From Mesorhizobium sp. NZP2298 (GTDB taxonomy: Bacteria; Pseudomonadota; Alphaproteobacteria; Rhizobiales; Rhizobiaceae), in assembly GCF_013170825.1 (NCBI RefSeq), contig NZ_CP033365.1:1488001-1552000 (forward strand): 64,000 nucleotides of DNA. The letters run 5' to 3'. The notes below the pieces were generated by a model, which worked only from the letters and a program-made list of their open reading frames with translations, had not been told where the DNA came from and searched no databases. The position numbers were made by a program, and so were the translations under genes. How positions within the stretch are numbered: the stretch's first letter is position 1; every line of letters starts with the position of its first letter. Below, in pieces: positions 19,576 to 48,788 of the stretch.

Positions 19576-19600
19576 GGAACAGAGGGGCGCTCACGGCGTT
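19576..19600 (+). promoter_or_regulatory. EcfG-type promoter (GGAAC-N16-CGTT)
   Basis: GGAAC at 19576-19580 and CGTT at 19597-19600 are separated by exactly 16 bases. The next start codon is 29 bases downstream of CGTT. It is identical in layout to eight sites in the general stress island 20 kb away. Confidence 0.8.
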
Positions 19601-35727: not shown

Positions 35728-37368
35728 TTGAAAAAGCTTTTTCCGATTGTCGCGTTCATCGCCGTTGCGCTGATCAGCATGACCATGGCGGGGTTCGCCT
35801 ATTTCGCGACGCAGGAAGCCGCCCGCATCAAGTTCGAGGCGGCGGCCGATGACGCACTCAACCGGATCGAGAGCCGTATCGATCTGCATTTGTCGCTGCT
35901 GCGGTCGACGCAGGCCCTGTTCGACGCCCGCAATGGCGACATCTCCCAGAACGAGTTCAAGGCGTTCTTCAACGCGCTGGATGTCGACACCAATTTCGCC
36001 GGCCTGCGCGGCATCGGCTTCCTCGGGCTGGTCAAGACGGGCGATGAGGCGGCGGTCGAACGCGACATCCTGCACGATTTTGGCACCAGCCATCCGGTCT
36101 ATCCGGAGACGACGCAGCCATGGCGCGCGCCCATCATGCTCTTCGAGCCGATGGACCCGTCCAACCAGGCCAGCATCGGCTACGATATGTTCAGCGAACC
36201 AGTGCGGCGCGCGGCGATCGAGAAGGCGATGGCCGATGACCAGCAGCACGCGAGCGGGCTGCTGCAACTGGGCCAAGGTACGGGCGCCACGCAGACCTTC
36301 ACCGGCTTCCTGGTCTTCGTCCGGCTTAACGTCGAAACAGCGCCCGAGGTCATCAACGCATCGCGATCCTCGACCGCGGGCTTTCTCTACGCGGCCTTCC
36401 GCGCCCGCGACCTGTTCCAGATCGCGCTCAGCCGTGCGCCGCTATTGCCGGTCAACACGGAAATCTATGACGGCGCGGTGAACAGCGACGACCTTCTGTT
36501 CCAGTCGGAGACGCCGCCGGTTTCGTCCTTTGGCGATCGGCTGCTGGTCACCCGCAAGATCACGGTGGCCGGCCGGCCGTGGACGGTATTGTTCAGGCCA
36601 ACCAGCGCCTTCTCGCAGCCGTCGTCGCGCGCCATCCCTGTGATGCTTGGGCTGTTCGGGCTGCTGGCGGCGGGCGCCATCGCGCTGGTGGCGCGCTATC
36701 AGGAGCGTGCCTATGAGGCGGCGTCGCGCTTGCACGAGACAACCGAGAAGAGCCTGCTCGAAAAAGACCTGATGCTGCAGGAGATGAAGCATCGCATCAA
36801 GAATTCGATCACCAGGGTGCTGGCGATCGCGCGGCAGACAGCTTCGCGAGCCACCGACGTCAATGAGTTTTCGGCCTCGTTCTCGGCCAGGTTGCAGGCG
36901 ATGGCCGCTTCCCAGGACATGCTGACGCGCTCGCGCTGGCAGAAGGCCGATCTCGCCGATCTCCTGCGCATCGAACTTGGCCAGGTATTCGGCAAGGACC
37001 TGCCGGAGGGGTTGTTGACCGGTCCCGAGGTGCTGCTCGACGAGACCACGACGCAGGCGCTTGGCCTCACCTTCCATGAACTGGCGACCAATGCGCTGAA
37101 ATATGGCGAAGCCGGCAATTCCGCCAATGCGCACCGAAGTGACTGGGCGCTCAAAGTGGACTGGTCGCTGGAAGGGCGGGGGCGCGAGCGGACGCTGGCT
37201 CTGAACTGGCGAGAAGCCGGGAAGAAAAAGGTCGAGGCGCCGGTCGAGACCGGATTCGGTACCAAGCTGATCGACCTCAATGTCACGCGCGAGTTGCGCG
37301 GCACGATCAAGCGCGATTTTCAGGCCGATGGTTTGAAGGTGGAAATAAGAATTCCGCTCACGGGCTGA
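35728..37368 (+). CDS. CHASE-domain sensor histidine kinase (HisKA_2/HWE type)
   Basis: A membrane sensor of 546 residues: an N-terminal helix (about 5-27), a periplasmic CHASE domain (about 30-290; SLLRSTQALFDARNG, GLRGIGFLGLV), a second helix (about 305-325) and a cytoplasmic HisKA_2-type kinase with His355 in EMKHRIKNS and an N-box LTFHELATNALKYG. The only start fitting the hydrophobic N terminus is TTG at 35728. Kinases of this type commonly feed PhyR, whose gene lies 3 kb downstream, so it is a candidate input to the stress response. CHASE domains bind small ligands such as cytokinin-like compounds in other proteins; the ligand here is unknown. Confidence 0.87.
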   Translation: MKKLFPIVAFIAVALISMTMAGFAYFATQEAARIKFEAAADDALNRIESRIDLHLSLLRSTQALFDARNGDISQNEFKAFFNALDVDTNFAGLRGIGFLGLVKTGDEAAVERDILHDFGTSHPVYPETTQPWRAPIMLFEPMDPSNQASIGYDMFSEPVRRAAIEKAMADDQQHASGLLQLGQGTGATQTFTGFLVFVRLNVETAPEVINASRSSTAGFLYAAFRARDLFQIALSRAPLLPVNTEIYDGAVNSDDLLFQSETPPVSSFGDRLLVTRKITVAGRPWTVLFRPTSAFSQPSSRAIPVMLGLFGLLAAGAIALVARYQERAYEAASRLHETTEKSLLEKDLMLQEMKHRIKNSITRVLAIARQTASRATDVNEFSASFSARLQAMAASQDMLTRSRWQKADLADLLRIELGQVFGKDLPEGLLTGPEVLLDETTTQALGLTFHELATNALKYGEAGNSANAHRSDWALKVDWSLEGRGRERTLALNWREAGKKKVEAPVETGFGTKLIDLNVTRELRGTIKRDFQADGLKVEIRIPLTG

Positions 37369-37467: not shown

Positions 37468-37713
37468 TTAGTTGCAGCGGGCCGTGTAAATCCGGCCGTG
37501 ACGGTCGCGATACTGGCAATAGCCGTTGCGCAGGTTGCGAACCAGCAAGCCCGATCCGGCACCGACAGCCGCCCCGATCAGGGCACCCTTGCCGCCGCCC
37601 ACCAGACCGCCAATGCCAGCACCAATCAAGGTGCCGCCAGCCACGTCCTTCTCGGTCGAGGTGCAGCCGCTGAGAGCGGCAACCGCAACCATCGCAATAA
37701 TCATCTTCCGCAT
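37468..37713 (-). CDS. Glycine-zipper lipoprotein
   Basis: 81 residues. The signal ends in the lipobox ALSGC, so the mature protein is a lipoprotein. A glycine-zipper segment follows (GGTLIGAGIGGLVGGGKGALIGAAVGAGSG) as in outer-membrane lipoproteins of the YMGG/SlyB type, then a short C-terminal basic tail with CQYRDRHGRIYTARC. The start is at MRKMIIAMV (ATG 37711-37713), with TGAGGAGTGA upstream on the minus strand. It probably helps envelope integrity. A 26-bp tandem duplication lies just upstream. Confidence 0.8.
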   Translation of the reverse strand: MRKMIIAMVAVAALSGCTSTEKDVAGGTLIGAGIGGLVGGGKGALIGAAVGAGSGLLVRNLRNGYCQYRDRHGRIYTARCN

Positions 37714-37821: not shown

Positions 37822-38148
37822 TTATTGTTGGCTAAGATAGTCTTTTTCTGGGCGCGCCGCCGCCGATGCCATCACCACATTGGAAATCGCCAATGATGCA
37901 TTGAGGCTGCCGTCGGGGCGCACATTCCAGACTATTTGATCGTAGTCATCCTCAAGCGCGGGATCGACCGCGAGGCATTTGGCGACAACATGCTGCGCCT
38001 GCCCTTGCACGTCGCCCATCGCGAATGGCCGTTCAGCGGTGCATTCGTCGGCGGTCGCGAAAACACTGACGGGCACCTGCAATTCGTGGCAATCGGCCAT
38101 TGAGTTCGAACAGCCGATGACCAGCAACAACGCGGCTATGTGTTCCAT
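37822..38148 (-). CDS. Small secreted hypothetical protein
   Basis: 108 residues with a signal peptide or lipobox-like start (MEHIAALLLVIGCSNSMADC). The mature part has three more Cys and ends in a short conserved-looking region LNASLAISNVVMASAAARPEKDYL. No family is recognised. GAGAGGAC before ATG 38146-38148 decides the start; the longer open frame upstream is non-coding. A possible EcfG promoter with a 17-base spacer lies just upstream. Confidence 0.65.
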   Translation of the reverse strand: MEHIAALLLVIGCSNSMADCHELQVPVSVFATADECTAERPFAMGDVQGQAQHVVAKCLAVDPALEDDYDQIVWNVRPDGSLNASLAISNVVMASAAARPEKDYLSQQ

Positions 38149-38172: not shown

Positions 38173-38198
38173 AACGGCGCACATCGTCAAAAAGTTCC
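38173..38198 (-). promoter_or_regulatory. Possible EcfG promoter, 17-base spacer
   Basis: On the minus strand GGAAC (38198-38194) and CGTT (38176-38173) are 17 bases apart; the usual spacing in this window is 16. It points at the start codon 25 bases further on (38148). Confidence 0.5.
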
Positions 38199-38348: not shown

Positions 38349-38525
38349 TCAGGTCAACTGGAACAGAGCGGCCAGGAGTATTATCGCGGCCAGCGTCAGG
38401 CCGATCCCTTTCATCAAGCCGTGACGTGCATGAGGGCGTGTTTCCGCGGCAGCTTCGGCATCCAGAAATTCGCCCATCGAAATACGGGCGGCCTGTTCCA
38501 ATCTGTTGATGTCGGCAACCGTCAA
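38349..38525 (-). CDS. 58-residue tail-anchored membrane protein, TTG start
   Basis: Reading from TTG at 38523-38525 gives MTVADINRLEQAARISMGEF, then an acidic segment and a single C-terminal helix ILLAALF-type before the stop at 38349. GGGGAGG lies 6-7 bases before the TTG, a very strong ribosome site. A positively charged stretch (RPHARHGLMKG) precedes the helix, as in tail-anchored inner-membrane proteins. It is too short and has no ATG, so ordinary gene calling may miss it. A degenerate EcfG promoter (GGAAC-N16-CATT, 38588-38564) is upstream. Function unknown. Confidence 0.65.
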   Translation of the reverse strand: MTVADINRLEQAARISMGEFLDAEAAAETRPHARHGLMKGIGLTLAAIILLAALFQLT

Positions 38526-38662: not shown

Positions 38663-39697
38663 TCACTGCGCCTCGAAATTGCTGTGTGGGACGACGAGGC
38701 GGTATTCGAGGCGGCCATCCGTGATGTCGAGGGTCGCGGTTCCGCTCAGGGATGTCGGCACCACCCGCTCCAGCGCGACGCTGCCGAAGCGCTTCTCCGT
38801 CCCCCGACCGCCATTGACTCCGATGGCTTCGGCCCATGTCAGCGAGAGTGTAACCTCACCGGTCGCGGCGGTGTTGAGATCGGCGGTTACCTCTACAAAT
38901 CCATCCGGCCGGGACAGAGCGCCGTAGCTGACCGAGTTTACGGCGAGCTCATGCATGGCCAGGCCGATATGAAGCGCGGCGTTGGGATTGAGGTAGGGGT
39001 TAGCACCCCGGAAGCGAAGGCTGTGCGGTGTGTTCGTCCCATAGCGGCCAACCTGGCTCGTCACCAGTTCATGAAGCGCCGCACCGCGCCAGTTCGAGGA
39101 CGTAACGAGATCCTGTGAGGAGGCCAGGGACTGCAGCCGGCCGCGAAAGCGCGTCAGGAAGTCGCCGATGCCATCTGAATAGCGGCCGGTCTGGCTCGCG
39201 ATGCTCTGGATGATCGCCAGGAGATTCTTCGAGCGGTGGCTGACCTCGCGCAGCAGCGTTGTCAGTGTCTGTTCGCGCCGCTTCTGCTCGGTCGTCTCGA
39301 CCATGGTGGTGACGACACCCTGCACGTCACCGGCGTCGCCCCGATCGGCATCGACCCAAACCTGAAACCAGCGGACGCCATTCTCGACCGGAACACTGAT
39401 TTCAAGGCGCTCCGGATTGCCGGTCGCAACCACATCGCGCTTGGCGGCGCTGATCCGGTCGGCCTGCGCCGTCGGCAGGATGCCGTTGCCGTCGGAATTG
39501 TCCGAAGCCCAGGGCGCACGCATGTTGCGAGCCCACACGGTCTTCATGTCGCGATCCTGATAGAGGACGGAAATGCCTGCATTGTGCAGTGCGTGGAGAA
39601 GGGCACGGCCAAGCTGCATGCCACTTTCAGCCGGATGCAAGGCGATGACTTCATCGCTCCGTGCGCCTTCCGTTTTATCTGCAGTCCTGGAGCGCAT
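38663..39697 (-). CDS. PAS-HWE histidine kinase
   Basis: A soluble kinase of 344 residues. A divergent PAS domain (about 30-140; VLYQDRDMKTVWARN) is followed by the HWE-type H-box REVSHRSKNLLAIIQSIA with His154 and the N-box GLAMHELAVNSVSYGALS. No membrane helix is seen. An exact EcfG promoter lies directly upstream (39727-39751), so the kinase is itself predicted to be stress-induced. Its likely partner is PhyR, 1 kb away, or the orphan receiver at 42081. It is co-oriented with the DUF1328 gene but has its own promoter. Confidence 0.88.
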   Translation of the reverse strand: MRSRTADKTEGARSDEVIALHPAESGMQLGRALLHALHNAGISVLYQDRDMKTVWARNMRAPWASDNSDGNGILPTAQADRISAAKRDVVATGNPERLEISVPVENGVRWFQVWVDADRGDAGDVQGVVTTMVETTEQKRREQTLTTLLREVSHRSKNLLAIIQSIASQTGRYSDGIGDFLTRFRGRLQSLASSQDLVTSSNWRGAALHELVTSQVGRYGTNTPHSLRFRGANPYLNPNAALHIGLAMHELAVNSVSYGALSRPDGFVEVTADLNTAATGEVTLSLTWAEAIGVNGGRGTEKRFGSVALERVVPTSLSGTATLDITDGRLEYRLVVPHSNFEAQ

Positions 39698-39726: not shown

Positions 39727-39751
39727 AACGGCTCACTGTCGAATGGGTTCC
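39727..39751 (-). promoter_or_regulatory. EcfG promoter of the PAS-HWE kinase
   Basis: On the minus strand GGAAC (39751-39747), 16 bases, CGTT (39730-39727). The kinase start codon is 30 bases beyond. Confidence 0.85.
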
Positions 39752-39790
39752 AAAATGAAATGTCCCGAGAACCTGCCCCTCTAAAGCGGT

Positions 39791-39829
39791 CCGCCGGACG
39801 GTGTCCCTTGGAGGGATACCGCCCGGCGG
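39791..39829 (-). terminator. Long imperfect hairpin downstream of the DUF1328 gene
   Basis: Arms 39791-39808 and 39812-39829 pair over 16 of 18 positions plus one G-U, around TGG. On the minus strand the T-run after it is weak (CGCTTTAG). It lies about 60 bases past the DUF1328 stop and may end or stabilise that RNA. Confidence 0.5.
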
Positions 39830-39888
39830 TGGCTGGAAACCGTTTGAGGGGTGCGGCTTCCAGTGTTCGCTCGGAGAAGCGCTCGCCC

Positions 39889-40053
39889 TCACGCCCGTTT
39901 GAACAGGCCGGCCAGAAGCGAAATGACCAGGAAGGCGAGAAAGATGAAGAACAATATCTGCGCTATACCGGCGGACGTGCCGGCGATGCCGCCGAAACCA
40001 AGCGCGCCGGCAATGATTGCCACGACGAGAAATACAAGCGCCCAGTAAAGCAT
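39889..40053 (-). CDS. DUF1328 small membrane protein
   Basis: 54 residues beginning [20 protein letters not shown] and ending LLAGLFKRA, with two membrane helices around [12 protein letters not shown]. This is the YtjA/DUF1328 family, often stress-induced in Proteobacteria. GGAGATG lies just before the ATG at 40051-40053 on the minus strand. An exact EcfG promoter (40084-40108) precedes it, which fits the family's stress association. Its molecular role is unknown. Confidence 0.9.
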
Positions 40054-40083
40054 GGTTCATCTCCTTCCGAATGGTGCAGGGAA

Positions 40084-40108
40084 AACGTGGGTGGATGCGG
40101 TTTGTTCC
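40084..40108 (-). promoter_or_regulatory. EcfG promoter of the DUF1328 gene
   Basis: On the minus strand GGAAC (40108-40104), 16 bases, CGTT (40087-40084). The DUF1328 start is 31 bases beyond. Confidence 0.85.
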
Positions 40109-40190
40109 ACCATTTGCCGAAAAAGACGATGCTTGCAAACCGTTAGAGGCGGAACCGATAGCGAAATTCAGGAATGACGGTCTCGGCTGC

Positions 40191-40225
40191 CAAAAGGCCG
40201 CCCGACGCATCGCGTCGGACGGCCT
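40191..40225 (-). terminator. Terminator of phyR
   Basis: AGGCCG (40195-40200) with CGGCCT (40220-40225) and CCGACGC (40202-40208) with GCGTCGG (40212-40218) make a 13-pair stem with one mismatch; TTTTG follows on the minus strand. It lies 37 bases past the phyR stop. Confidence 0.85.
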
Positions 40226-40261
40226 CTGATTCTGGAATATTCGTGCTGGAAAACAGCGAAC

Positions 40262-41056
40262 CTATGCGGCGGCCTTTGCCTGGCGGTCGAAGAACAGCGC
40301 CTGGCTGATCAGTGCCTTGACCATATCGGGATTGAACGGCTTGGTCACCAGGAAGGCCGGTTCGGGGCGCTCGCCGGTCAAGAGCCGCTCGGGGAAGGCG
40401 GTGATGAAGATAACCGGCACCGAGGTTGACGACAGGATCTCGTTGACCGCCTCGATGCCCGAACTGCCGTCGGCGAGCTGGATGTCGGCCAGCACCATCT
40501 TCGGCCGCGTCTTGCCGAACATCGTCACCGCCTCGGCATGCGTGCGCGCCGTTCCAACGACACGATGACCGAGGCTCTCGACCATCTCCTCTATGTCCAT
40601 GGCAATCAGCGGTTCGTCCTCGATGATGAGCACGTCGGTCGCCACCTGGCGGGAAATCTCATTGCTTGCCTGGGCAAGCAGTTCGGAGAATTGCTGGTCG
40701 CCGACATCGAGAATCTCGGCCGCCTCGTCCTCGCTGAAGCCTTCGACGGCAACCAGCAGGAAAGCCTGGCGGGGCAGCGGCGCGATCGCATTGAGATTGG
40801 CGGCGGCGCGCTGCTCCCACGCCGATTGCGCCTGTTCCTGCGGCACGCGGATGGCGACGGAAGTGAACAGCTTGGCGAAAACCTTGTACAGAGCGATGCG
40901 GTCGCTCGATGCCTCGGGGAAGATGTCGATGTCGGCGATGATGGCCTCAAGCATCGCAGCGACCAGCGCGTCGCCGCTCTCTTGCGATCCCGAGACAGCG
41001 CGCGAGAAGCGGCGCAGGAACGGCAGATGCGGTGCGATGGTGGCGGATAAACTCAT
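40262..41056 (-). CDS. phyR: General stress response anti-anti-sigma regulator PhyR
   Basis: PhyR controls the alphaproteobacterial general stress response by partner switching: when phosphorylated, its sigma-like domain binds NepR and frees EcfG. Residues 1-130 are the EcfG-like sigma domain (LPRQAFLLVAVEGFSEDEAAEIL resembles sigma region 4) and 140-264 the receiver, with acidic pocket IEDEP and phospho-acceptor Asp191 in MVLADIQLAD and the conserved Lys in VTKPFNP. It is divergent from nepR-ecfG, and two EcfG promoters lie back to back between them, giving positive feedback. Confidence 0.97.
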   Translation of the reverse strand: MSLSATIAPHLPFLRRFSRAVSGSQESGDALVAAMLEAIIADIDIFPEASSDRIALYKVFAKLFTSVAIRVPQEQAQSAWEQRAAANLNAIAPLPRQAFLLVAVEGFSEDEAAEILDVGDQQFSELLAQASNEISRQVATDVLIIEDEPLIAMDIEEMVESLGHRVVGTARTHAEAVTMFGKTRPKMVLADIQLADGSSGIEAVNEILSSTSVPVIFITAFPERLLTGERPEPAFLVTKPFNPDMVKALISQALFFDRQAKAAA

Positions 41057-41130
41057 GGTAAAACGTCTCCCTCAGAATGACGTGATTGCCTGGATTTGCA
41101 GGTCAAGCTGATTGCAAGCCCCGCTAATAC

Positions 41131-41155
41131 AACGCGGGTTTTGTGAAAAAGTTCC
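41131..41155 (-). promoter_or_regulatory. EcfG promoter of phyR
   Basis: On the minus strand GGAAC (41155-41151), 16 bases, CGTT (41134-41131). It is 9 bases away from the divergent nepR promoter. The phyR start is 75 bases beyond. Confidence 0.9.
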
Positions 41156-41164
41156 GGCCGATAT

Positions 41165-41189
41165 GGAACGAATAGGCGGGAACGGCGTT
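41165..41189 (+). promoter_or_regulatory. EcfG promoter of nepR-ecfG
   Basis: GGAAC (41165-41169), 16 bases, CGTT (41186-41189). The nepR start is 91 bases downstream. Confidence 0.9.
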
Positions 41190-41279
41190 TGGTGTCGGGA
41201 TGGGCAACCAGACGAGGGTGCCGCTCGCCTTGTATTGAGTTGAGTATGAGCGGCCTAACGCTGGGAATATAAGGGCGAA

Positions 41280-41483
41280 ATGAAGGATATGACGAAAGAT
41301 ATTGTGGCTGGCGCCGAGGACAGGCGCCGGAACGGTGTCGGCGACCCTCTGGGGCCGAACTCCGAGATCGGACGCAAACTCAAGCAATATTATGACGAGC
41401 TGGTCTCGGATGATGTGCCGGATCGCTTTGCCCAGTTGCTTAGCCAGCTGGAACAGACCGAACCCGCACAGAAGAAGGACTGA
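41280..41483 (+). CDS. nepR: Anti-sigma factor NepR
   Basis: A 67-residue anti-sigma factor that holds EcfG inactive until PhyR~P binds it. The conserved helix region IGRKLKQYYDELVSDDVPDRFAQLLSQLE fits the NepR signature. AAGGGCGAA before ATG 41280 supports the start. The stop is 3 bases before ecfG, so the two are coupled; it faces phyR across paired EcfG promoters. Confidence 0.95.
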   Translation: MKDMTKDIVAGAEDRRRNGVGDPLGPNSEIGRKLKQYYDELVSDDVPDRFAQLLSQLEQTEPAQKKD

Positions 41484-41486
41484 GGC

Positions 41487-42038
41487 ATGGCCGCGGTCTC
41501 CCAAGGCTTCAAGACCGATCTGCTTGGGGCAATCCCGAGCTTGCGGGCCTTTGCCGTGTCGCTGACTCAGAATGCCGACAAGGCTGACGACCTTGTCCAG
41601 GAAACGCTGGTCAAGGCCTGGGACAAGCATGAGAGCTTCCAGCCCGGCACGAATCTCAAGGCATGGCTTTTCACGATCCTGCGCAATGAATTCTACTCGC
41701 AGATGCGCAAACGCGGCCGCGAGGTTCAGGACAGCGACGGCATCATGACAGCCAGGCTCGCGGTGCATCCCGCCCAGCACGGCCAACTCGACCTCAAGGA
41801 TTTTCGTGGCGCTCTCGAGCAATTGCCGGAAGACCAGCGCGAGGCCATCATCCTCATCGGTGCATCGGGCTTCTCCTATGAGGAGGCCGCCGAAATCTGC
41901 GGTTGCGCGGTCGGAACGATCAAGAGCCGCGTCAGCAGGGCCCGCACGCGCCTGCAGGAAATCCTGAAGATTTCCGGCGAGGACGAATATGGTCCCGATG
42001 CGATCTCGGCTCAGGTCACGGGGACCGCGGCGCATTGA
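41487..42038 (+). CDS. ecfG: General stress sigma factor EcfG
   Basis: An extracytoplasmic-function sigma factor of the ECF15 (EcfG) group, 183 residues. Region 2 reads NADKADDLVQETLVKAWDKHESFQPGTNLKAWLFTILRN and region 4 LPEDQREAIILIGASGFSYEEAAEICGCAVGTIKSRVSRARTRL. It recognises GGAAC-N16/17-CGTT promoters, several of which are in this window, including its own. Activity is controlled by the adjacent NepR and PhyR. Confidence 0.97.
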   Translation: MAAVSQGFKTDLLGAIPSLRAFAVSLTQNADKADDLVQETLVKAWDKHESFQPGTNLKAWLFTILRNEFYSQMRKRGREVQDSDGIMTARLAVHPAQHGQLDLKDFRGALEQLPEDQREAIILIGASGFSYEEAAEICGCAVGTIKSRVSRARTRLQEILKISGEDEYGPDAISAQVTGTAAH

Positions 42039-42080
42039 CGTAAGGTTCCGCGAGCGGATTCGAACGCAGCTGTATCGATC

Positions 42081-42461
42081 TCACCCCGCAGAGCCGCGTC
42101 CGTAGGCCCGCGCCACCGCTTCGACGAGATCCTCGCCTGAATAGGGTTTGGTGACCAGCCTCACCCCCGGGAAGGACGCCTTGATCTCGTCCGCATCCGA
42201 ATAACCGGAGGCAAACACGAAAGGGACGCCTGTTTCCCGCAAGCCGGCGGCGAATTCGAGCGTCGACGTGCCGCCCAGCATCAGATCGACAATGGCCGCG
42301 TCAAACTGCATCGCGACCTTTCCGCCGTCGACCTCGGCCAGGTCTCGGGCTATCACCACCTCCCGCGCACCGTGGTCGCGGCAAAGCTGCTCGACATCCA
42401 TGGCGATGAGGAATTCGTCCTCCAGGACAAGAATCCGCAATCCGTCAAGCAATGTGGGCAT
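42081..42461 (-). CDS. Single-domain response regulator
   Basis: A stand-alone receiver of about 126 residues: acidic pocket LEDEFL, phospho-acceptor Asp59 in AAIVDLMLGG and the conserved Lys in LVTKPYSGE. It has no output domain. Stand-alone receivers of this sort act in PhyR circuits as phosphate sinks or relays. The start is uncertain: ATG 42461 (MPTLLDGLRI) begins the domain cleanly with AAGGAG 12 bases upstream; ATG 42533 and TTG 42542 would add a low-complexity extension that overlaps the EcfG promoter of the next gene. Confidence 0.85.
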   Translation of the reverse strand: MPTLLDGLRILVLEDEFLIAMDVEQLCRDHGAREVVIARDLAEVDGGKVAMQFDAAIVDLMLGGTSTLEFAAGLRETGVPFVFASGYSDADEIKASFPGVRLVTKPYSGEDLVEAVARAYGRGSAG

Positions 42462-42545
42462 CACAGGTGAAGGCTCCTTGAAACGCCGGGAGTCATGATC
42501 GCAATTGGGTGTGTTGTCATTTAAAAAAGACATGCCTTTCAACCC

Positions 42546-42570
42546 GGAACTCCGGTTCCGGCAAAACGTT
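42546..42570 (+). promoter_or_regulatory. EcfG promoter of the Crp/Fnr gene
   Basis: GGAAC (42546-42550), 16 bases, CGTT (42567-42570). The regulator start is 44 bases downstream. Confidence 0.85.
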
Positions 42571-42613
42571 TAAGGATACCTGCTGACCGGCAGGCTTTCG
42601 AAGAGGGGTCGAA

Positions 42614-43375
42614 ATGCCAGGGCAGAACGGGCGTGCTTCATCGAGCCGACAATATCCTTGCGAGAAATGTCCTCTACGGCCATTGCCGGTTTTCCGCGAG
42701 TTCGAAAATCAGGAACTGGCCTTCATCAGCAAGTTCAAGAAGGGCGAACTCGCGGTCGACAAGGGCGCCACGGTGCTCGTGGAGGGGAGCCATAGCGCCC
42801 ATCTCTACACCGTACTGTCCGGCTGGGCGTTCCGCTACAAGCTATTGCCGGACGGCAGACGACAGATCCTCAACTATCTCATGCCCGGCGATCTCATCGG
42901 CCTGCAAGGCAGCGTCATGGGCGAGATGCAGCATTCCGTCGAGGCCTTGTCGCCGATGCTGCTTTGCGTTTTTGAACGCGACAATCTGCACGAACTCTAC
43001 CGCAACCATCCGGGCCTCGGCTACGACATCACCTGGATCGCGTCGCGCGAAGAACGCATGCTGGACGAGAACCTGCTCAGCGTCGGCCGCCGCAGCGCGA
43101 TCGAGCGCGCCGCTTATCTGATTGCCTTCATAGCCAGCCGCGCCAAGGTCGTCGGGCTGAACGGCAAGCAATCCATCCAGATTCCGATCACGCAGCAGCA
43201 CATCGCCGATACGCTTGGCCTGTCGCTGGTTCACACCAACAAGACGATCCGCAAACTGATGGACCGCAAGCTGATCTTTTGGCGGGATGGCGGTTGCGAG
43301 GTGGTCGACACTGAAGGGCTCAAGCAACTCGCCGGCTGGGAAGGGTTGGGCGAGGGGCGTCGCCCACTGATCTGA
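42614..43375 (+). CDS. Crp/Fnr-family transcriptional regulator
   Basis: 253 residues: an N-terminal cyclic-nucleotide-binding fold (about 40-150; LYTVLSGWAFRYKLLPDGRRQILNYLMPGDLIGLQ) and a C-terminal winged helix (IPITQQHIADTLGLSLVHTNKTIRKL). The N terminus has CEKCPLRP, a CxxC reminiscent of Fnr-type cluster ligands, but the rest of an Fnr cluster set is not evident. Under an exact EcfG promoter, it is likely a second-tier regulator in the stress cascade. Effector unknown. Confidence 0.88.
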   Translation: MPGQNGRASSSRQYPCEKCPLRPLPVFREFENQELAFISKFKKGELAVDKGATVLVEGSHSAHLYTVLSGWAFRYKLLPDGRRQILNYLMPGDLIGLQGSVMGEMQHSVEALSPMLLCVFERDNLHELYRNHPGLGYDITWIASREERMLDENLLSVGRRSAIERAAYLIAFIASRAKVVGLNGKQSIQIPITQQHIADTLGLSLVHTNKTIRKLMDRKLIFWRDGGCEVVDTEGLKQLAGWEGLGEGRRPLI

Positions 43376-43448
43376 CGACGCGCGCCTCTCGTCATGGTTT
43401 GGTGACTGGTGCGTACGCGCGCGTTTTCGGCTAGTTTAGCCCGATGCC

Positions 43449-43473
43449 GGAACCTTGAGACGCAAGGCGCGTT
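43449..43473 (+). promoter_or_regulatory. EcfG promoter of the DUF883 gene
   Basis: GGAAC (43449-43453), 16 bases, CGTT (43470-43473). The start codon is 31 bases downstream. Confidence 0.85.
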
Positions 43474-43503
43474 TGAAATCGAGCAATCACAAGGAGTTAA
43501 GCA

Positions 43504-43830
43504 ATGGCAACCGCCGCAGGAAAGACCGCCAACGAAGCGCGGACGAATTCGGACCTCGAAGCCGACATCAAGCAGCTGAAGGCTGATATCGACAAGCTTA
43601 CCAAGCAGTTGGCCAAGACCGGCGAACACGGCTATGGCACGGCGCGCCGTGCAGCTGCCGAGGGCGTCGAGCAGTTGCGTGCCCAAGGGGAAGCGGCCTT
43701 CGACAGCCTGCGCGGCAATGCCAGGGATATCGAAGCACAGATGGTGGCGAGCGTGCGCGAAAAGCCGGTGACGTCGCTGGCGATCGCAGCGGGCGTCGGC
43801 TTCCTCTTCGCGCTGCTCGCGCGTCGCTAG
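43504..43830 (+). CDS. DUF883 (ElaB/YqjD-type) tail-anchored protein
   Basis: 108 residues: a long amphipathic coiled coil (ADIKQLKADIDKLTKQLAKTG) and a single C-terminal helix preceded by VREKPVTSLAIAAGVGFLFALLARR. ElaB/YqjD-type proteins are stress-induced in enterobacteria, sit in the inner membrane and bind ribosomes. An AAGGAG site precedes ATG 43504. The EcfG promoter at 43449 predicts stress induction. The next gene starts 12 bases after its stop, like the yqjD-yqjE pair. Confidence 0.9.
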   Translation: MATAAGKTANEARTNSDLEADIKQLKADIDKLTKQLAKTGEHGYGTARRAAAEGVEQLRAQGEAAFDSLRGNARDIEAQMVASVREKPVTSLAIAAGVGFLFALLARR

Positions 43831-43841
43831 ATCCGCCCCAG

Positions 43842-44300
43842 ATGGGACTGCTGGCATCCCTGCTTTCGGGTTTCGCCTCGGGTGAGACCGTGGCCGCCAT
43901 ACGCCGCGCGCGCACGGCGGCCATCATCTATGCGCTTGCCGCGTTGGCAGCTTTGTGCGGTCTCGGCTTTCTGGTTGGGGCAGCCTATATCTGGGCCGCG
44001 GCCCGCTATGGATCGTTCGCGGCGGCGCTTGGCTTCGGTATCGGCTTCCTGGTGGTCGCCGGCCTCGTTCTTCTCGTCCATCGCTTGATGTCTGGCGCCC
44101 GTGCTCGCCGCGAGGCTCGGCGGCGCAACGCCGATATGAAGGCGATCGGCATCACGGCCGCACTTGCCGTGCTGCCGGCCTTGCTCAAGGGAAAGGGCGG
44201 CCTCGGCATTATTCTGGGTCCGGCCGTGGCACTCGCCGCCTATGCCATATACCGCGAGAATACGAAGCCCGACGATCCGGATGCAGGGCACGGGACATGA
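43842..44300 (+). CDS. Holin-superfamily-like membrane protein (YqjE-type)
   Basis: 152 residues with two clear N-terminal helices (about 22-48 and 55-82) and a hydrophobic C-terminal segment (GITAALAVLPALLKGKGGLGIILGPAVALAAYAIY). The arrangement directly after a DUF883 gene resembles yqjD-yqjE. Arg-rich linker RARREARRRNADMK separates the helix pairs. It shares the EcfG promoter of the upstream gene. Function unknown, probably envelope stress. Confidence 0.75.
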   Translation: MGLLASLLSGFASGETVAAIRRARTAAIIYALAALAALCGLGFLVGAAYIWAAARYGSFAAALGFGIGFLVVAGLVLLVHRLMSGARARREARRRNADMKAIGITAALAVLPALLKGKGGLGIILGPAVALAAYAIYRENTKPDDPDAGHGT

Positions 44301-44330
44301 CGCCGCCGCTCCTGCCCTGGATCAGATCCG

Positions 44331-45863
44331 TCACTTGGACAGATCTTCCAGCGGCATCGATATTTCGGCGAAGACGCCCTCGGGCCGGAATTCATGGGTG
44401 ACTTCGCTTGAAATGACCTTGGCCAGGCTGCGGCGGATGAGAATCGAGCCGAAGCCATGGCGCTGCGGCGGGGCGACTTCAGGGCCGCCGCTTTCGCGCC
44501 AGGTCAGCACCAGGCGCCGGTCGCCCTTCCTGCCTTGTGTCTTCCAGTCGAGATCAACCTTGCCCGATGCAACCGACAGGGATCCATATTGCAGCGCATT
44601 GCTGGCCAGTTCGTGCAGGATGAGCCCGAGGCCGACGGCCTGATCGGGTGACAGCAAAAGGTCGGCGCCGGAGATGGTGATACGCGGCTGGTCGTCGGTG
44701 TCAAAGGGCCTGATCTCGATCTGGACGAGTTCGCGGATGCCGATGCCGCGCCACTCGCGGTCGGACAAGAGATTGTGGGCGATGCCCAATGCCTGAAGCC
44801 GGGCGCTGAACGCCTCGAGGAATTCACTCGGCTGGCGGGCATGGCGAACGGTCTGCGTCGCCAGCGCCTGGACGGTCGCCAGCGTGTTCTTGACGCGGTG
44901 GTTGAGTTCGCGCAGCAGGAGCCGCTGCCGCTCTTCGCCGAGCTTGCGTTCGGAAATGTCGTAGTTGACGCCGAAGATCAGCGTCGGCTTGCCGTCGCCG
45001 TCGCGCTCGATGACGCTGCCGCGCGTGGCCACCCAGCGCGGCGGATGAAAGTCTTTCACCCGGTATTCGCCGAAATAATCGTCGCTGCCGGTCAAGGCGT
45101 CTCGAAAGCGGGTTTCGGTCTGATAGACGTCGCGCGGATCGATGGCGGTCAGGATGTCACGTGCCCGCAGCCGGGTCGAACGCGGCAGGTTGAACAATTC
45201 CGACAATCGGACATCGCATTCGATGATGTCCGTGCGGACATCCCATGCCCAGCTGGCCAGCGATGCAGCGTCGAGCGCGATGGCACGCCGCTTCTCCTCG
45301 CGCGCAAGTGCTGCCTCGGCGATGGCGCCGCTGCGGGTCGCATCCTTCAAGGTAAACAGGCTGGCGGCAAGGCCTGCCAGCGTCTTCAACTGGTCGAGCT
45401 TGGCCTGTGACGGAAAGGCATGTGGCTTGCGGTCGAGCACACACAGCGTGCCGATCCTGGCGCCTGCCACGAGCATCGGCGCGCCGGCGTAGAAACGCAA
45501 ATGGTGCCTGCCGGTGACCAGCGGATTGGCCTTGAAGCGCGGATCTGTCGCCGCGTCGGTCACCACCATGGGATCGTCGCCGGCGGCGATGGCGTGGGCA
45601 CAGAAGGAGATGTCGGTCGAGGTTTCGGTCTCGTCGAGACCAAAGCAGGACTTGAACCATTGCCGATCGACATCGACGAGCGTCACCAGGGCGACAGGCA
45701 CCTGCATCACGGATGCGGCAAGGCCGGTGATGCGGTCGAAATCCGGGTCGGCCGCCGTATCCAGCATCTCCAGCCCGTGCAGCACGGCCAGCCGGTCTTC
45801 GTCCTCTATCGAGCGCGCGACCTCGGCCGGCAGGCTCGACCCTATTTCCGCCTTGCTATTCAC
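44331..45863 (-). CDS. GAF-PAS-HWE histidine kinase
   Basis: A soluble kinase of 510 residues. An N-terminal GAF domain (about 25-165; DRQWFKSCFGLDETET, FYAGAPMLVAGARIGTLCVLD) is followed by a PAS domain (about 190-310) and an HWE kinase with H-box LRELNHRVKNTLATVQALA (His322) and N-box GLILHELASNALQYGSLS. The start is GTG 45863 (MNSKAEIGSS); the frame upstream is non-coding. GAF-PAS-HWE proteins include light or redox sensors, but no chromophore Cys is evident. It is likely another PhyR input. No EcfG site faces this gene. Confidence 0.88.
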   Translation of the reverse strand: MNSKAEIGSSLPAEVARSIEDEDRLAVLHGLEMLDTAADPDFDRITGLAASVMQVPVALVTLVDVDRQWFKSCFGLDETETSTDISFCAHAIAAGDDPMVVTDAATDPRFKANPLVTGRHHLRFYAGAPMLVAGARIGTLCVLDRKPHAFPSQAKLDQLKTLAGLAASLFTLKDATRSGAIAEAALAREEKRRAIALDAASLASWAWDVRTDIIECDVRLSELFNLPRSTRLRARDILTAIDPRDVYQTETRFRDALTGSDDYFGEYRVKDFHPPRWVATRGSVIERDGDGKPTLIFGVNYDISERKLGEERQRLLLRELNHRVKNTLATVQALATQTVRHARQPSEFLEAFSARLQALGIAHNLLSDREWRGIGIRELVQIEIRPFDTDDQPRITISGADLLLSPDQAVGLGLILHELASNALQYGSLSVASGKVDLDWKTQGRKGDRRLVLTWRESGGPEVAPPQRHGFGSILIRRSLAKVISSEVTHEFRPEGVFAEISMPLEDLSK

Positions 45864-45935
45864 CCCAATCCCCAATGCCCATGCCGGTATTCGCCGACTT
45901 GCCAACCAACCGGCCCGCCACGGGCTCGCTTTCCC

Positions 45936-45960
45936 GGAACCATCCTAGCAGGGAACCGTT
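45936..45960 (+). promoter_or_regulatory. EcfG promoter of the 57-residue membrane protein
   Basis: GGAAC (45936-45940), 16 bases, CGTT (45957-45960). The start codon at 46018 is 58 bases downstream. Confidence 0.85.
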
Positions 45961-46017
45961 ACCCGACCATGTTTTGCCGAGTGCGCCAACAAGCGCAGAA
46001 CGTAACAAGGATCGGCC

Positions 46018-46191
46018 ATGACCAAGATCATTCCCGAAGACAAGGCGCGACAGGGCCGATGGGGCTGGCACGGCCTGCGCATCCTGATCGCCGCGCTGCT
46101 CCTGGCTATCGCTGCCTGGGGCATCGCCGAAATCTATGGTGAGGTGGCCAAGACACCGGCGACGGAGCAGGGAAGTGCGCCGAGCGGATAG
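46018..46191 (+). CDS. 57-residue single-pass membrane protein, predicted stress-induced
   Basis: The frame reads MTKIIPEDKARQGRWGWHG, then one membrane helix (LRILIAALLLAIAAWGIAEI) and a short acidic/Pro tail ending APSG. The ribosome site is AAGGATCGGCC just before the ATG. Nothing else lies in the interval, and an exact EcfG promoter is 58 bases upstream. The stop is at the edge of dispersed repeat copy C. No family is recognised. Confidence 0.75.
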   Translation: MTKIIPEDKARQGRWGWHGLRILIAALLLAIAAWGIAEIYGEVAKTPATEQGSAPSG

Positions 46192-46256
46192 CGCAATTCC
46201 AGGAAAAGCTTGAAGCGGCTTTCCGTCCGGAATGGCGTCGGAACAATGCTCTGGAT
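46190..46256 (-). repeat. Dispersed intergenic repeat, copy C (partial, inverted)
   Basis: Its reverse complement contains TTCCGGACGGAAAGCCG and CTTTTCCTGGAATTGCGC, matching the distal half of copies A and B. The hairpin half is absent. Confidence 0.7.
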
Positions 46257-46283
46257 TCACGGCCGTCATGGTTCGGGATAGCA

Positions 46284-47204
46284 TCAGGCGGCCTTTGCCT
46301 CGGCGATGCTGGCGGGCACCAGGACGTTCAACGCACGAGGCTTGATCTCGATGGTCGTTTCACGATCGAGCCGGACGAGTTCGCCATCCATGACGGCGCG
46401 GAACCTCCTGCTGCCGGAATGGATTTTCAGGACAGTGCGGTCGGACTGATGGATTTCCACATGTTCATTGTCCCGCCATTTGCCGCGCGCCACGTTGAAG
46501 AAGAACTTCACCAGTTCGGCGCGCTGCTGCGCCACGGTGACATAGATGCCGAGCACGCCGCCCGAAGGGTTGTCCGCATAGGGGAGGTGGCCCTCGCCGA
46601 ACAGGTTGTTGGTGACGCCGATGCCTGTTATGCGCGCCGTCATCTCGGCGTCGCCGATGGCGAGCGTCACGTTCATCGCAGGCGGATTCTTGATCGTCGC
46701 CCATGCCGCCTTGGCCGAAGCTCCGATCTTGCCCAGGCGCGACCCAAATTCCATGCCTTGGCGCAGTTGAACCATCTTGGCATGCATGCCGATCGAGAAC
46801 TGATGGACGAAGGGTTGGCCATTGGCCGTGGCCATGTCGACCGCGATGATCTCGCCGTCGGCGAAGGAGTCCAGCGCGGCATTTAGCGACTGCGGAATGC
46901 CGAGACCGCGTGCGAACAGGTTCATGGTGCCGGCCGGCAATATGGCCAGCGCCTTCTTCTTGCCCATCAGCCTGGCGGCCGCGGCTGAAATGGTTCCGTC
47001 GCCGCCACCGGCGAGCACGACATCGATGGTGCGGCGCGAGGCGGCGCTGTCGAGGGCTTCCACAACGTCCTTGCCGGCAACGACATCGATGCTGAGAGAA
47101 TGGCCTGCCGTCTCCAGCGTCTGGCGCATCTTGTCGGAAAGGGCGGCGAGGTCGGTGGTGCGCAAGGTGCCGCCGTCCCGGTTCAGCACCGCCGCAAATT
47201 TCAT
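46284..47204 (-). CDS. Diacylglycerol/sphingosine kinase-like lipid kinase
   Basis: 306 residues of the DAGK catalytic family: GGDGTISAAAARL is the nucleotide-binding motif and LPAGTMNLFARGLGIP follows it; the C-terminal beta-rich domain ends with EIKPRALNVLVP. These enzymes phosphorylate lipids or lipid-like substrates in the cytoplasm or at the membrane. The exact lipid is unknown (diacylglycerol, or YegS-like phosphatidylglycerol). No EcfG site is seen upstream. It is divergent from the PRC-barrel gene. Confidence 0.88.
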   Translation of the reverse strand: MKFAAVLNRDGGTLRTTDLAALSDKMRQTLETAGHSLSIDVVAGKDVVEALDSAASRRTIDVVLAGGGDGTISAAAARLMGKKKALAILPAGTMNLFARGLGIPQSLNAALDSFADGEIIAVDMATANGQPFVHQFSIGMHAKMVQLRQGMEFGSRLGKIGASAKAAWATIKNPPAMNVTLAIGDAEMTARITGIGVTNNLFGEGHLPYADNPSGGVLGIYVTVAQQRAELVKFFFNVARGKWRDNEHVEIHQSDRTVLKIHSGSRRFRAVMDGELVRLDRETTIEIKPRALNVLVPASIAEAKAA

Positions 47205-47356
47205 GCCCCGCTCCGTTTGTCAGTCAAAACGTGCCGGGGCGAAGCCCAGCCGCAGGCTGCAACGTGGCGGTCCGGGAAAGGTTCCATTGGAGCGGTGCAA
47301 TTCTGCGCATGTTCTCAAGCCGCCGCGCAACCGCTCGAATCCTGGCCAATTTTGTC

Positions 47357-47381
47357 GGAACAACAGCATGGTCACGACGTT
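47357..47381 (+). promoter_or_regulatory. EcfG promoter of the PRC-barrel gene
   Basis: GGAAC (47357-47361), 16 bases, CGTT (47378-47381). The start codon is 91 bases downstream. Confidence 0.85.
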
Positions 47382-47471: not shown

Positions 47472-48788
47472 ATGATCCGCACCCTTTTAGCCACGACCGC
47501 ACTCGCAACGCTGATCGCGACCGGTGCCTTCGCACAGAGCGCGACGACCCCGGCTCCAGCGGACGCACCTGCCGTTCAGGAGCCGGCCGCAGTTGCACCG
47601 GTGCCGCGCGCCGAAGGCAGCATCGTCACCAACATCATCGGCGAATCCGTCTATAACGGCACGGGCGACGATGCCGAGAACATCGGCAAGGTCAGCGATG
47701 TCGTCTTCGACAAGGATGGCATGGCGAAATCCGTCGTCATCGGCGTCGGCGGCTTTCTGGGCGTAGGCGCGAAAAATGTCGCCTTCGACTACGACAAGCT
47801 GCAGTGGGCCGAGAAGAATGGCGACCGCTGGCTGGTTGCCCAGACAACCAAGGAAGAACTGACGGCGCATCCGGAGTTCGACAGCAAGCCCTATGGACCC
47901 GCACCAGCGCCAGCCGCTTCCACGGATGCGACAGCTCCCGCAGCGCCCGCCACGACCGATACCGCGCAGAAACCTGTCGACATGAATGCTACCCCGGCCG
48001 AGCCGGTGAAGCGCGCCGACGGCAACCTTGCCACCAATATCATTGGTGAGACCGTCTACAACGGTACCGGTGACGACGCGCAGAATATCGGCAGCGTCAA
48101 CGACATCGTGCTTTCCAAGGAAGGCAAGGCCGAATCCCTGGTTATCGGCGTGGGTGGGTTTCTTGGTCTAGGCGCCAAGAATGTCACCTATGATTTCGGC
48201 AAGGCACAGTGGGCCGAGAAGAATGGCGACCGCTGGCTGGTGGCGCAGACGACAAAGGAAGAGCTGCAGGCGCAGCCGGATTTCAACCGCAAGGCTTATG
48301 ATCCGGCGCCGGCGACGACCGCTTCCAATGAACCCTCGACGACTGCACCGGCCGCGACCACGGCTTCCGCCGCCGCTCCGGCGGACAAGACAGCCGAGGC
48401 TCCGGCCGCGACGGCTCCCGACCAGACGCAGACGGCTGCCATCGACAAGTCCACGCTGACCGCGATGCCGGTCGGCGAGATCAGGGCCGACGACCTCAAG
48501 GGCACCACGGTCTACGGCGCCAATGATGCCAAGGTCGGCGAGATCGGCGATGTCGTGCTGACGCCGGACAACAAAACCGATGCCGTGATCGTCGACGTCG
48601 GCGGCTTCCTCGGCATCGGCGGGAAGGAGGTCGCGGTTGGCCTGGATAATCTCAAATTCATGACCGACAAGGACGGCAAGAAGTATCTCTATACGACCTT
48701 CACCAAGGAACAGCTGCAGGCGCAGACTGCCTATGACAAGGGCAGCTATGCCGAGAAGCGCGACCAGCAGCGGATGATTGTGAGGTAG
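47472..48788 (+). CDS. Secreted protein with three PRC-barrel domains
   Basis: 438 residues. A signal peptide (to about residue 22, GAFAQ) is followed by three PRC-barrel units, each with IGDV/VNDIV-like and VDVGGFLGIG signatures (VIGVGGFLGVGAKNVAFD, VIGVGGFLGLGAKNVTYD, IVDVGGFLGIGGKEVAVG). The first two are near-identical over about 90 residues, showing recent duplication; Ala/Pro/Thr-rich linkers separate them. PRC-barrels occur in RNA processing and photosynthetic reaction centres; exported ones in rhizobia are envelope proteins of unknown role. The EcfG promoter predicts stress induction. The stop codon lies in an 8-bp tandem repeat. Confidence 0.9.
   Translation: MIRTLLATTALATLIATGAFAQSATTPAPADAPAVQEPAAVAPVPRAEGSIVTNIIGESVYNGTGDDAENIGKVSDVVFDKDGMAKSVVIGVGGFLGVGAKNVAFDYDKLQWAEKNGDRWLVAQTTKEELTAHPEFDSKPYGPAPAPAASTDATAPAAPATTDTAQKPVDMNATPAEPVKRADGNLATNIIGETVYNGTGDDAQNIGSVNDIVLSKEGKAESLVIGVGGFLGLGAKNVTYDFGKAQWAEKNGDRWLVAQTTKEELQAQPDFNRKAYDPAPATTASNEPSTTAPAATTASAAAPADKTAEAPAATAPDQTQTAAIDKSTLTAMPVGEIRADDLKGTTVYGANDAKVGEIGDVVLTPDNKTDAVIVDVGGFLGIGGKEVAVGLDNLKFMTDKDGKKYLYTTFTKEQLQAQTAYDKGSYAEKRDQQRMIVR

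Follow-up and report, generated by a model that had tools for sequence, protein, structure and literature searches.

The extracytoplasmic function (ECF) sigma factor EcfG, the anti-sigma factor NepR and the anti-anti-sigma response regulator PhyR belong to a general stress response that has been described in several bacteria. Here we report on the phyR/nepR-ecfG locus of Mesorhizobium sp. NZP2298 and the predicted EcfG promoters around it, analysed in a 64,000-nucleotide stretch of DNA (contig NZ_CP033365.1, positions 1,488,001 to 1,552,000; termed the window, to which coordinates refer unless stated otherwise). According to the passages of six papers on which we draw throughout (PMC3892343, PMC6599016, PMC8103513, PMC4814048, PMC3616915 and PMC7083833), motif, autoregulation and divergent layout are established, and the system as such is therefore known. 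In our literature search, no paper on EcfG in Mesorhizobium was found by title.

The motif GGAAC-N16-CGTT was derived experimentally in Rhizobium etli (PMC3892343) and Sphingopyxis granuli (PMC7083833). In R. etli, which like our locus combines this motif with EcfG1, PhyR and NepR, ecfG1 is autoregulated and phyR is EcfG-dependent; a second, non-canonical EcfG2 is present there, whereas we found one canonical EcfG, and the passages of that paper contain no ten-promoter cluster around phyR (PMC3892343). S. granuli TFA carries the motif before nepR2-ecfG1, with phyR, csbD and an HWE kinase gene next to phyR2 as direct targets, but has two copies each of ecfG, phyR and nepR, and its nepR2-ecfG1 is divergent from ecfG2 rather than phyR (PMC7083833). 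In Sinorhizobium meliloti, regulators likewise lie within the regulon of RpoE2, which comprises 76 dependent genes with mapped start and motif; rsiA1 and rsiB1 are RpoE2-dependent with mapped starts (PMC3616915). Methylobacterium extorquens has the similar consensus GAAC-N16,17-C/GGTT but differs in possessing six ecfG genes, none of them at the phyR locus; the paper on it names as the commonest arrangement one in which ecfG-nepR and phyR diverge and each has an EcfG promoter (PMC4814048).

The phyR/nepR-ecfG locus and its predicted promoter cluster

The locus very probably represents the Mesorhizobium general stress response core, around which promoters of direct EcfG targets are clustered. 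The host genome, a single contig of 7.34 Mb, is that of a Mesorhizobium close to M. huakuii, residues 1-183 of its EcfG being 100% identical to EcfG of M. huakuii NBRC 15243. The core regulators and their promoters are:

40262..41056, minus strand: phyR, anti-anti-sigma response regulator (PF22029, PF22233 and PF00072 above cut-offs)
41131..41155, minus strand: predicted EcfG promoter of phyR, with a T-tract after GGAAC (exact N16 match)
41156..41164, no strand: 9-bp gap between the divergent -35 boxes (read from the sequence)
41165..41189, plus strand: predicted EcfG promoter of nepR-ecfG (exact N16 match)
41280..41483, plus strand: nepR, anti-sigma factor (PF18557, 59.7 bits, cut-off 25.7)
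41487..42038, plus strand: ecfG, general stress ECF sigma factor (NF009199, 356.6 bits, cut-off 219)

PhyR shows a sigma-like N-terminal and a receiver C-terminal domain (NF006623, 388 bits at a cut-off of 240; PDB 4g97, E 2.4e-118; also PDB 5uxw). EcfG, encoded downstream of nepR, matches PDB 5uxx (E 9.1e-74), and NepR stays below the narrower NCBIfam NepR equivalog cut-off (27.1 vs 100). The phyR gene is divergent from nepR-ecfG, with an EcfG-type site before each. Three HWE kinases with PF07536 are encoded near phyR (35728-37368, 38663-39697 and 44331-45905); two of these, the GAF-PAS-HWE kinase (44331-45905, minus strand) and the CHASE-HWE kinase (35728-37368, plus strand), are without an EcfG site and are candidates for the sensory input. 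A single-domain response regulator (42081-42461, minus strand) between ecfG and crp is related to SdrG (PDB 5ieb, E 5e-8) and closer still to 2lpm (E 2e-12).

Exact GGAAC-N16-CGTT was found ten times in the whole window by pattern scan, as opposed to a mean of 0.60 and a maximum of 4 in 100 shuffles; because of this excess the clustering is not attributable to chance. Nine of the copies fall into 39727-47381, where about 0.11 sites would be expected in 7.7 kb at the genome's observed rate. The eight sites listed in an earlier note on this DNA are all present, but that count was low, as it missed a ninth exact site at 47261-47285 (minus strand) and a nearby one with an N17 spacer, which was detected by a spacer scan and is the tenth site of the locus. 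The note's background estimate of one match per 262 kb per strand was too low for this genome, where 105 matches in 7.34 Mb correspond to about 1 per 140 kb per strand. Its 30-91 bases to the start codon became 24-90 bp when measured directly on the sequence from the end of CGTT; the values for the first HWE kinase (HWE1) and Crp assume ATGs at 39697 and 42614, whereas our gene caller, a simple one for which the window and the loci of 29 relatives served as training set, chose later starts, at distances of 107 and 112 bp. The remaining exact N16 site of the window (19576-19600, plus strand) lies 28 bp before a 78-residue open reading frame (ORF) without Pfam match.

The predicted targets around the core are:

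37822..38148, minus strand: 108-codon ORF, predicted EcfG target (coding score; site in 43 of 47 relatives with a match)
38173..38198, minus strand: GGAAC-N17-CGTT, predicted EcfG promoter 24 bp before the 108-codon ORF
38663..39697, minus strand: HWE histidine kinase HWE1, predicted target (PF07536, 81 bits)
39727..39751, minus strand: predicted EcfG promoter of the HWE1 kinase (exact N16 match)
39889..40053, minus strand: DUF1328 small membrane protein, predicted target (PF07043)
40084..40108, minus strand: predicted EcfG promoter of DUF1328 (exact N16 match)
42546..42570, plus strand: predicted EcfG promoter of the Crp/Fnr regulator (exact N16 match)
42614..43375, plus strand: Crp/Fnr-type regulator, predicted target (PF00027, PF13545)
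43449..43473, plus strand: predicted EcfG promoter of the DUF883 operon (exact N16 match)
43504..43830, plus strand: DUF883-type protein, predicted target (PF19029/PF05957 slightly below cut-off)
43842..44300, plus strand: 152-residue ORF, 11 bp past DUF883 (own site in 0 of 75 relatives)
45936..45960, plus strand: predicted EcfG promoter of the 57-residue ORF (exact N16 match)
46018..46191, plus strand: 57-residue ORF, predicted target (site in 29 of 30 core loci; apparent hydrophobic stretch, by impression)
46284..47204, minus strand: DAGK/YegS-type lipid kinase, predicted target (PF00781, 77.5 bits; PF19279)
47261..47285, minus strand: predicted EcfG promoter of the lipid kinase, ninth exact site, 56 bp before its ORF
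47357..47381, plus strand: predicted EcfG promoter of the PRC-barrel gene (exact N16 match)
47472..48788, plus strand: triple PRC-barrel protein, predicted target (PF05239 in three stretches)

The gene names given earlier were borne out by Pfam within limits: DUF883 stays below the cut-offs, the ORF called holin-like is without match, and the first HWE kinase (38663..39697) has no Pfam PAS domain at E 0.001. Neither the 152-residue nor the 57-residue ORF matches Pfam or NCBIfam; the former is probably co-transcribed with DUF883 as one operon. For the 108-codon ORF, whose N-terminus looks like a signal peptide, no NCBIfam or other family match was obtained. Adjoining this ORF, a YMGG-type glycine-zipper lipoprotein is encoded without a strict site (37468-37713, minus strand), and a small ORF 3' of the HWE1 gene (38349-38525, minus strand) has a match in 30 of the 80 relatives described below and no site.

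Conservation and genome-wide distribution of the sites

From at least 565 relatives confirmed in an EcfG search, the best 80 were used as loci (1.59 Mb in all), ranging from Mesorhizobium to Phyllobacterium, Devosia and Brucella. A strict site was defined as GGAAC-N16/N17-CGTT between 300 bp before and 60 bp inside the start of the best tblastn match, at any identity. Such sites were retained before most orthologues of DUF1328 (71/73), DUF883 (70/77), PhyR (65/80), NepR (56/73), the 108-codon ORF (43/47), the lipid kinase (42/55), the PRC-barrel protein (39/57) and the 57-residue ORF (35/48), and before 37/71 for HWE1 and 35/57 for Crp; HWE1 sites lie within 220 bp in 29 relatives and farther away in the others. 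Before neighbouring genes they were absent (response regulator 42081-42461, 0/80; 152-residue ORF, 0/75; sulfatase, 0/40) or rare (CHASE-HWE kinase, 6/73; GAF-HWE kinase, 12/73), the latter occurring in distant loci at low identity.

The distinction is sharper in the 31 core Mesorhizobium loci, for which the region was narrowed to reach from 150 bp upstream of the start to 60 bp into the gene, and rows below 50% identity or too close to the locus end were excluded. Here the ten targets carry sites in 284 of 299 rows, while five neighbouring non-targets carry none in 146 (0/31, 0/24, 0/31, 0/30 and 0/30). Retention is complete for DUF1328, PhyR, NepR, DUF883 and the lipid kinase (31/31 each) as well as for PRC (30/30), followed by the 57-residue ORF (29/30), the 108-codon ORF (24/28), HWE1 (24/31) and Crp (22/25). 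In the first four relatives' rows, the letters between the boxes of the HWE1, 57-residue ORF and PRC promoters look unusually conserved, perhaps owing to a second overlapping signal.

The sites are also specific in their spacer. In the 80 loci, N16 gave 483 and N17 101 matches, as against 5-47 for each of the sixteen other spacers within 8-25 and 11-62 for the reversed pattern. That the spacer always measures 16 bases holds for the sites listed earlier, but it was found so because only N16 had been searched; N17 is also used, as at the tenth site. Orthologous promoters even vary between spacers 16 and 17 (108-codon ORF, 22 and 20 relatives; lipid kinase, 30 and 12; Crp, 27 and 8).

In about 20 kb round phyR we counted ten strict, intergenic, upstream sites in the window and a mean of 6.3 in the 80 relatives (control GGAAC-N22-25-GTT, 0.43). 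Twenty order-level genomes had 0-8 such sites and 20 class-level genomes 0-6, five of the latter being represented by shorter stretches of 6.3-18.9 kb; in distant taxa, the strict CGTT consensus may undercount sites. The promoter cluster characterizes this clade and is not general. The idea that this genome alone has a very dense promoter island had to be softened, because density grades off with distance.

The earlier note had proposed a whole-genome scan, in which the count failed to separate a regulon from background, but position did. Genome counts were 105 vs 147 for the reversed pattern with N16, 31 vs 73 with N17 and 39 vs 166 with N18, and we rejected genome-wide enrichment by count. 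Of the 105 N16 sites 100 were examined, and with starts from the gene caller described above 53 of them were intergenic and at most 120 bp before a start; the figure was 8 of 29 examined for N17 (31 in all), compared with 1 of 30 examined for N18 (39 in all) and 14 among 600 random positions. The resulting candidate list holds 61 sites, ten of them in 9.2 kb, or 0.13% of the genome. Pfam analysis of 49 of the other 51 candidates yielded a match at E 0.001 for 32, including CsbD (twice), Usp, DJ-1/PfpI, KaiC, HU, GT20, BA14K (twice), DUF3008, DUF3309, DUF982 (twice), outer-membrane beta-barrel, MgtC and baeRF12/Host_attach. A gene that we take from its sequence to be Lon-like, with a site 222 bp away, was excluded by the 120-bp limit. 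At genome positions 3021701-3022027, a CsbD-like gene is preceded by an exact site, and a second exact site at a distance of 300 bp from the first has no called start. Known EcfG targets include csbD and the HWE kinase adjoining phyR2 in S. granuli (PMC7083833), and the S. melonis table contains a PRC-barrel protein, a cAMP-binding regulator and a "protein required for attachment to host cells" (PMC6599016).

Alternative readings of the sites

Several observations weigh against assigning these sites to an EcfG regulon. HWE1 and Crp sites are absent from many relatives (present in 37/71 and 35/57); the genome-wide count falls below that of the reversed control (105 vs 147), so that a share of these sites must be background; 35 of 100 N16 sites fall within genes; and some candidates lack an evident stress link (DNA polymerase beta clamp, TetR, MFS transporter and others), the beta clamp gene being probably background. 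Moreover, other ECF factors may read GGAA-type promoters, and one close ECF paralogue has GGAAT-N17-CGTT upstream.

The alternative that survives best is that some of the ten sites, chiefly those of HWE1 and Crp, are relics or facultative and the active set is smaller. The low retention of these two sites, overall and in the core (24/31 and 22/25), fits this idea, but median start spacings of 29 (HWE1) and 42 (Crp), with single distances of 11-100, and exact boxes in most core loci count against it, and we think a reduced set improbable though worth keeping in mind.

It is considerably less likely that another ECF sigma factor of the genome reads the sites wholly or in part. NepR has one match genome-wide, as does PhyR at E 1e-40 or better; a laxer PhyR search gave nine matches, and among the matches listed three further ones cover the receiver only. 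The EcfG search returned 12 additional, weaker ECF-like matches, which provide possible readers, and the GGAAT-N17-CGTT element precedes one of the three closest paralogues (35-38% identity to EcfG). Downstream of each of these three, the ones read among the twelve, there is however an ORF of 257-263 codons with the look of a membrane anti-sigma factor, not of NepR. The motif equals the published EcfG motif, and phyR and nepR-ecfG are themselves each preceded by one of the sites. The neighbours of the three closest paralogues gave no support to an EcfG2-like second reader, and the single canonical EcfG is the economical reader of the sites.

That the matches are chance or base-composition products of a 63% GC region has next to no credibility: genome-wide, the pattern does not exceed its reversed control in frequency, but the ten matches against a shuffle maximum of 4, the conservation before orthologues with 0/146 before neighbours and the spacer specificity in 80 loci refute it.

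The EcfG regulon reading of the earlier note is thus supported by sites conserved before orthologues but not before neighbours, by the published motif and by the one canonical EcfG/NepR/PhyR set that our searches showed; we infer that EcfG binds these sites and that expression behind them is EcfG-dependent. Following the mechanism in the literature, an HWE kinase would phosphorylate PhyR under stress, PhyR would take NepR off EcfG, and EcfG-RNA polymerase would fire at GGAAC-N16/17-CGTT. Regulators predicted to be EcfG-driven are its own operon, phyR, one HWE kinase and the Crp/Fnr regulator; the six predicted effector units are DUF1328, the DUF883 operon, the 57-residue ORF, the lipid kinase, the PRC-barrel protein and the 108-codon ORF.

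Spacing of the divergent phyR and nepR-ecfG promoters

The -35 boxes of the phyR and nepR-ecfG promoters are 9 bp apart in the window, and the gap measures 7-10 bp in 45 of the 50 named relatives in which both promoters have a strict site (the other five: 19, 22, 87 and two overlapping orders). As an internal control, the lipid kinase and PRC promoters, likewise divergent, are separated by gaps of 25 to 120 bp across relatives. A four-T run at most 6 bases after GGAAC was seen in 60 of 65 phyR promoters vs 3 of 54 nepR promoters.

A wider set comprised 220 phyR upstream regions from class and order samples, the last 60 hand-picked to spread over genera; relaxed boxes were allowed and the smallest gap up to 150 bp was taken. 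A divergent pair was present in 105 and missing in 115, with a NepR or EcfG match on the divergent side in 101 of the 105. The gap was 6-10 bp in 82 pairs (40 from Mesorhizobium: 32 core, 8 same-genus), 11-21 bp in one (19 bp) and at least 22 bp in 22. Outside the genus, 40 pairs from the class and order samples split into 20 at 6-9 bp, none at 10-21 bp and 20 at 22-103 bp. The strict compact pattern (gap 0-30) occurred in 73 of 199 family genomes vs 1 for the reversed control, and in 27 of 387 class genomes vs 7, most of these class matches having no demonstrated position at phyR.

A PhyR tree with 51 rows, 49 of them labelled, was built by a quick method from 39 of the 40 pairs and 12 named rows; 21 of its 48 inner branches stay open. 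It requires at least 7 changes between the compact and wide states, four of them forced by starred branches, compared with 15.3 in shuffles; the state is therefore also strongly inherited, and the 40 pairs do not count as independent. For the wide -35/-35 gaps, helical phasing was not supported: the strength in the Rayleigh test (p ~0.04 at 10.5 bp, 19 gaps) did not single out that period, and its rows are not independent.

A distance of 6-10 bp between the -35 boxes probably leaves no room for two EcfG holoenzymes to bind side by side; this idea of exclusive occupancy rests on the footprint of RNA polymerase. It accounts for the close spacing, not for the avoidance of 10-21 bp. Quite tentatively, the pair may be a constrained, mutually exclusive double promoter, with alphaproteobacteria using either compact gaps or gaps of at least 22 bp and avoiding the range between. 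Each EcfG binding event would then pick either PhyR (activator) or NepR-EcfG (inhibitor plus sigma factor), and the T-tract on the phyR side would bias the choice. No description of this spacing was found by title or abstract start, in a search that left subscription papers mostly outside.

For Mesorhizobium, the outcome is a conservation-backed list of predicted direct EcfG targets together with the genome-wide list of 61 candidate sites. If firing of the two promoters is exclusive, their fixed spacing would set the PhyR:NepR ratio, a control point of the stress switch, at the DNA level.

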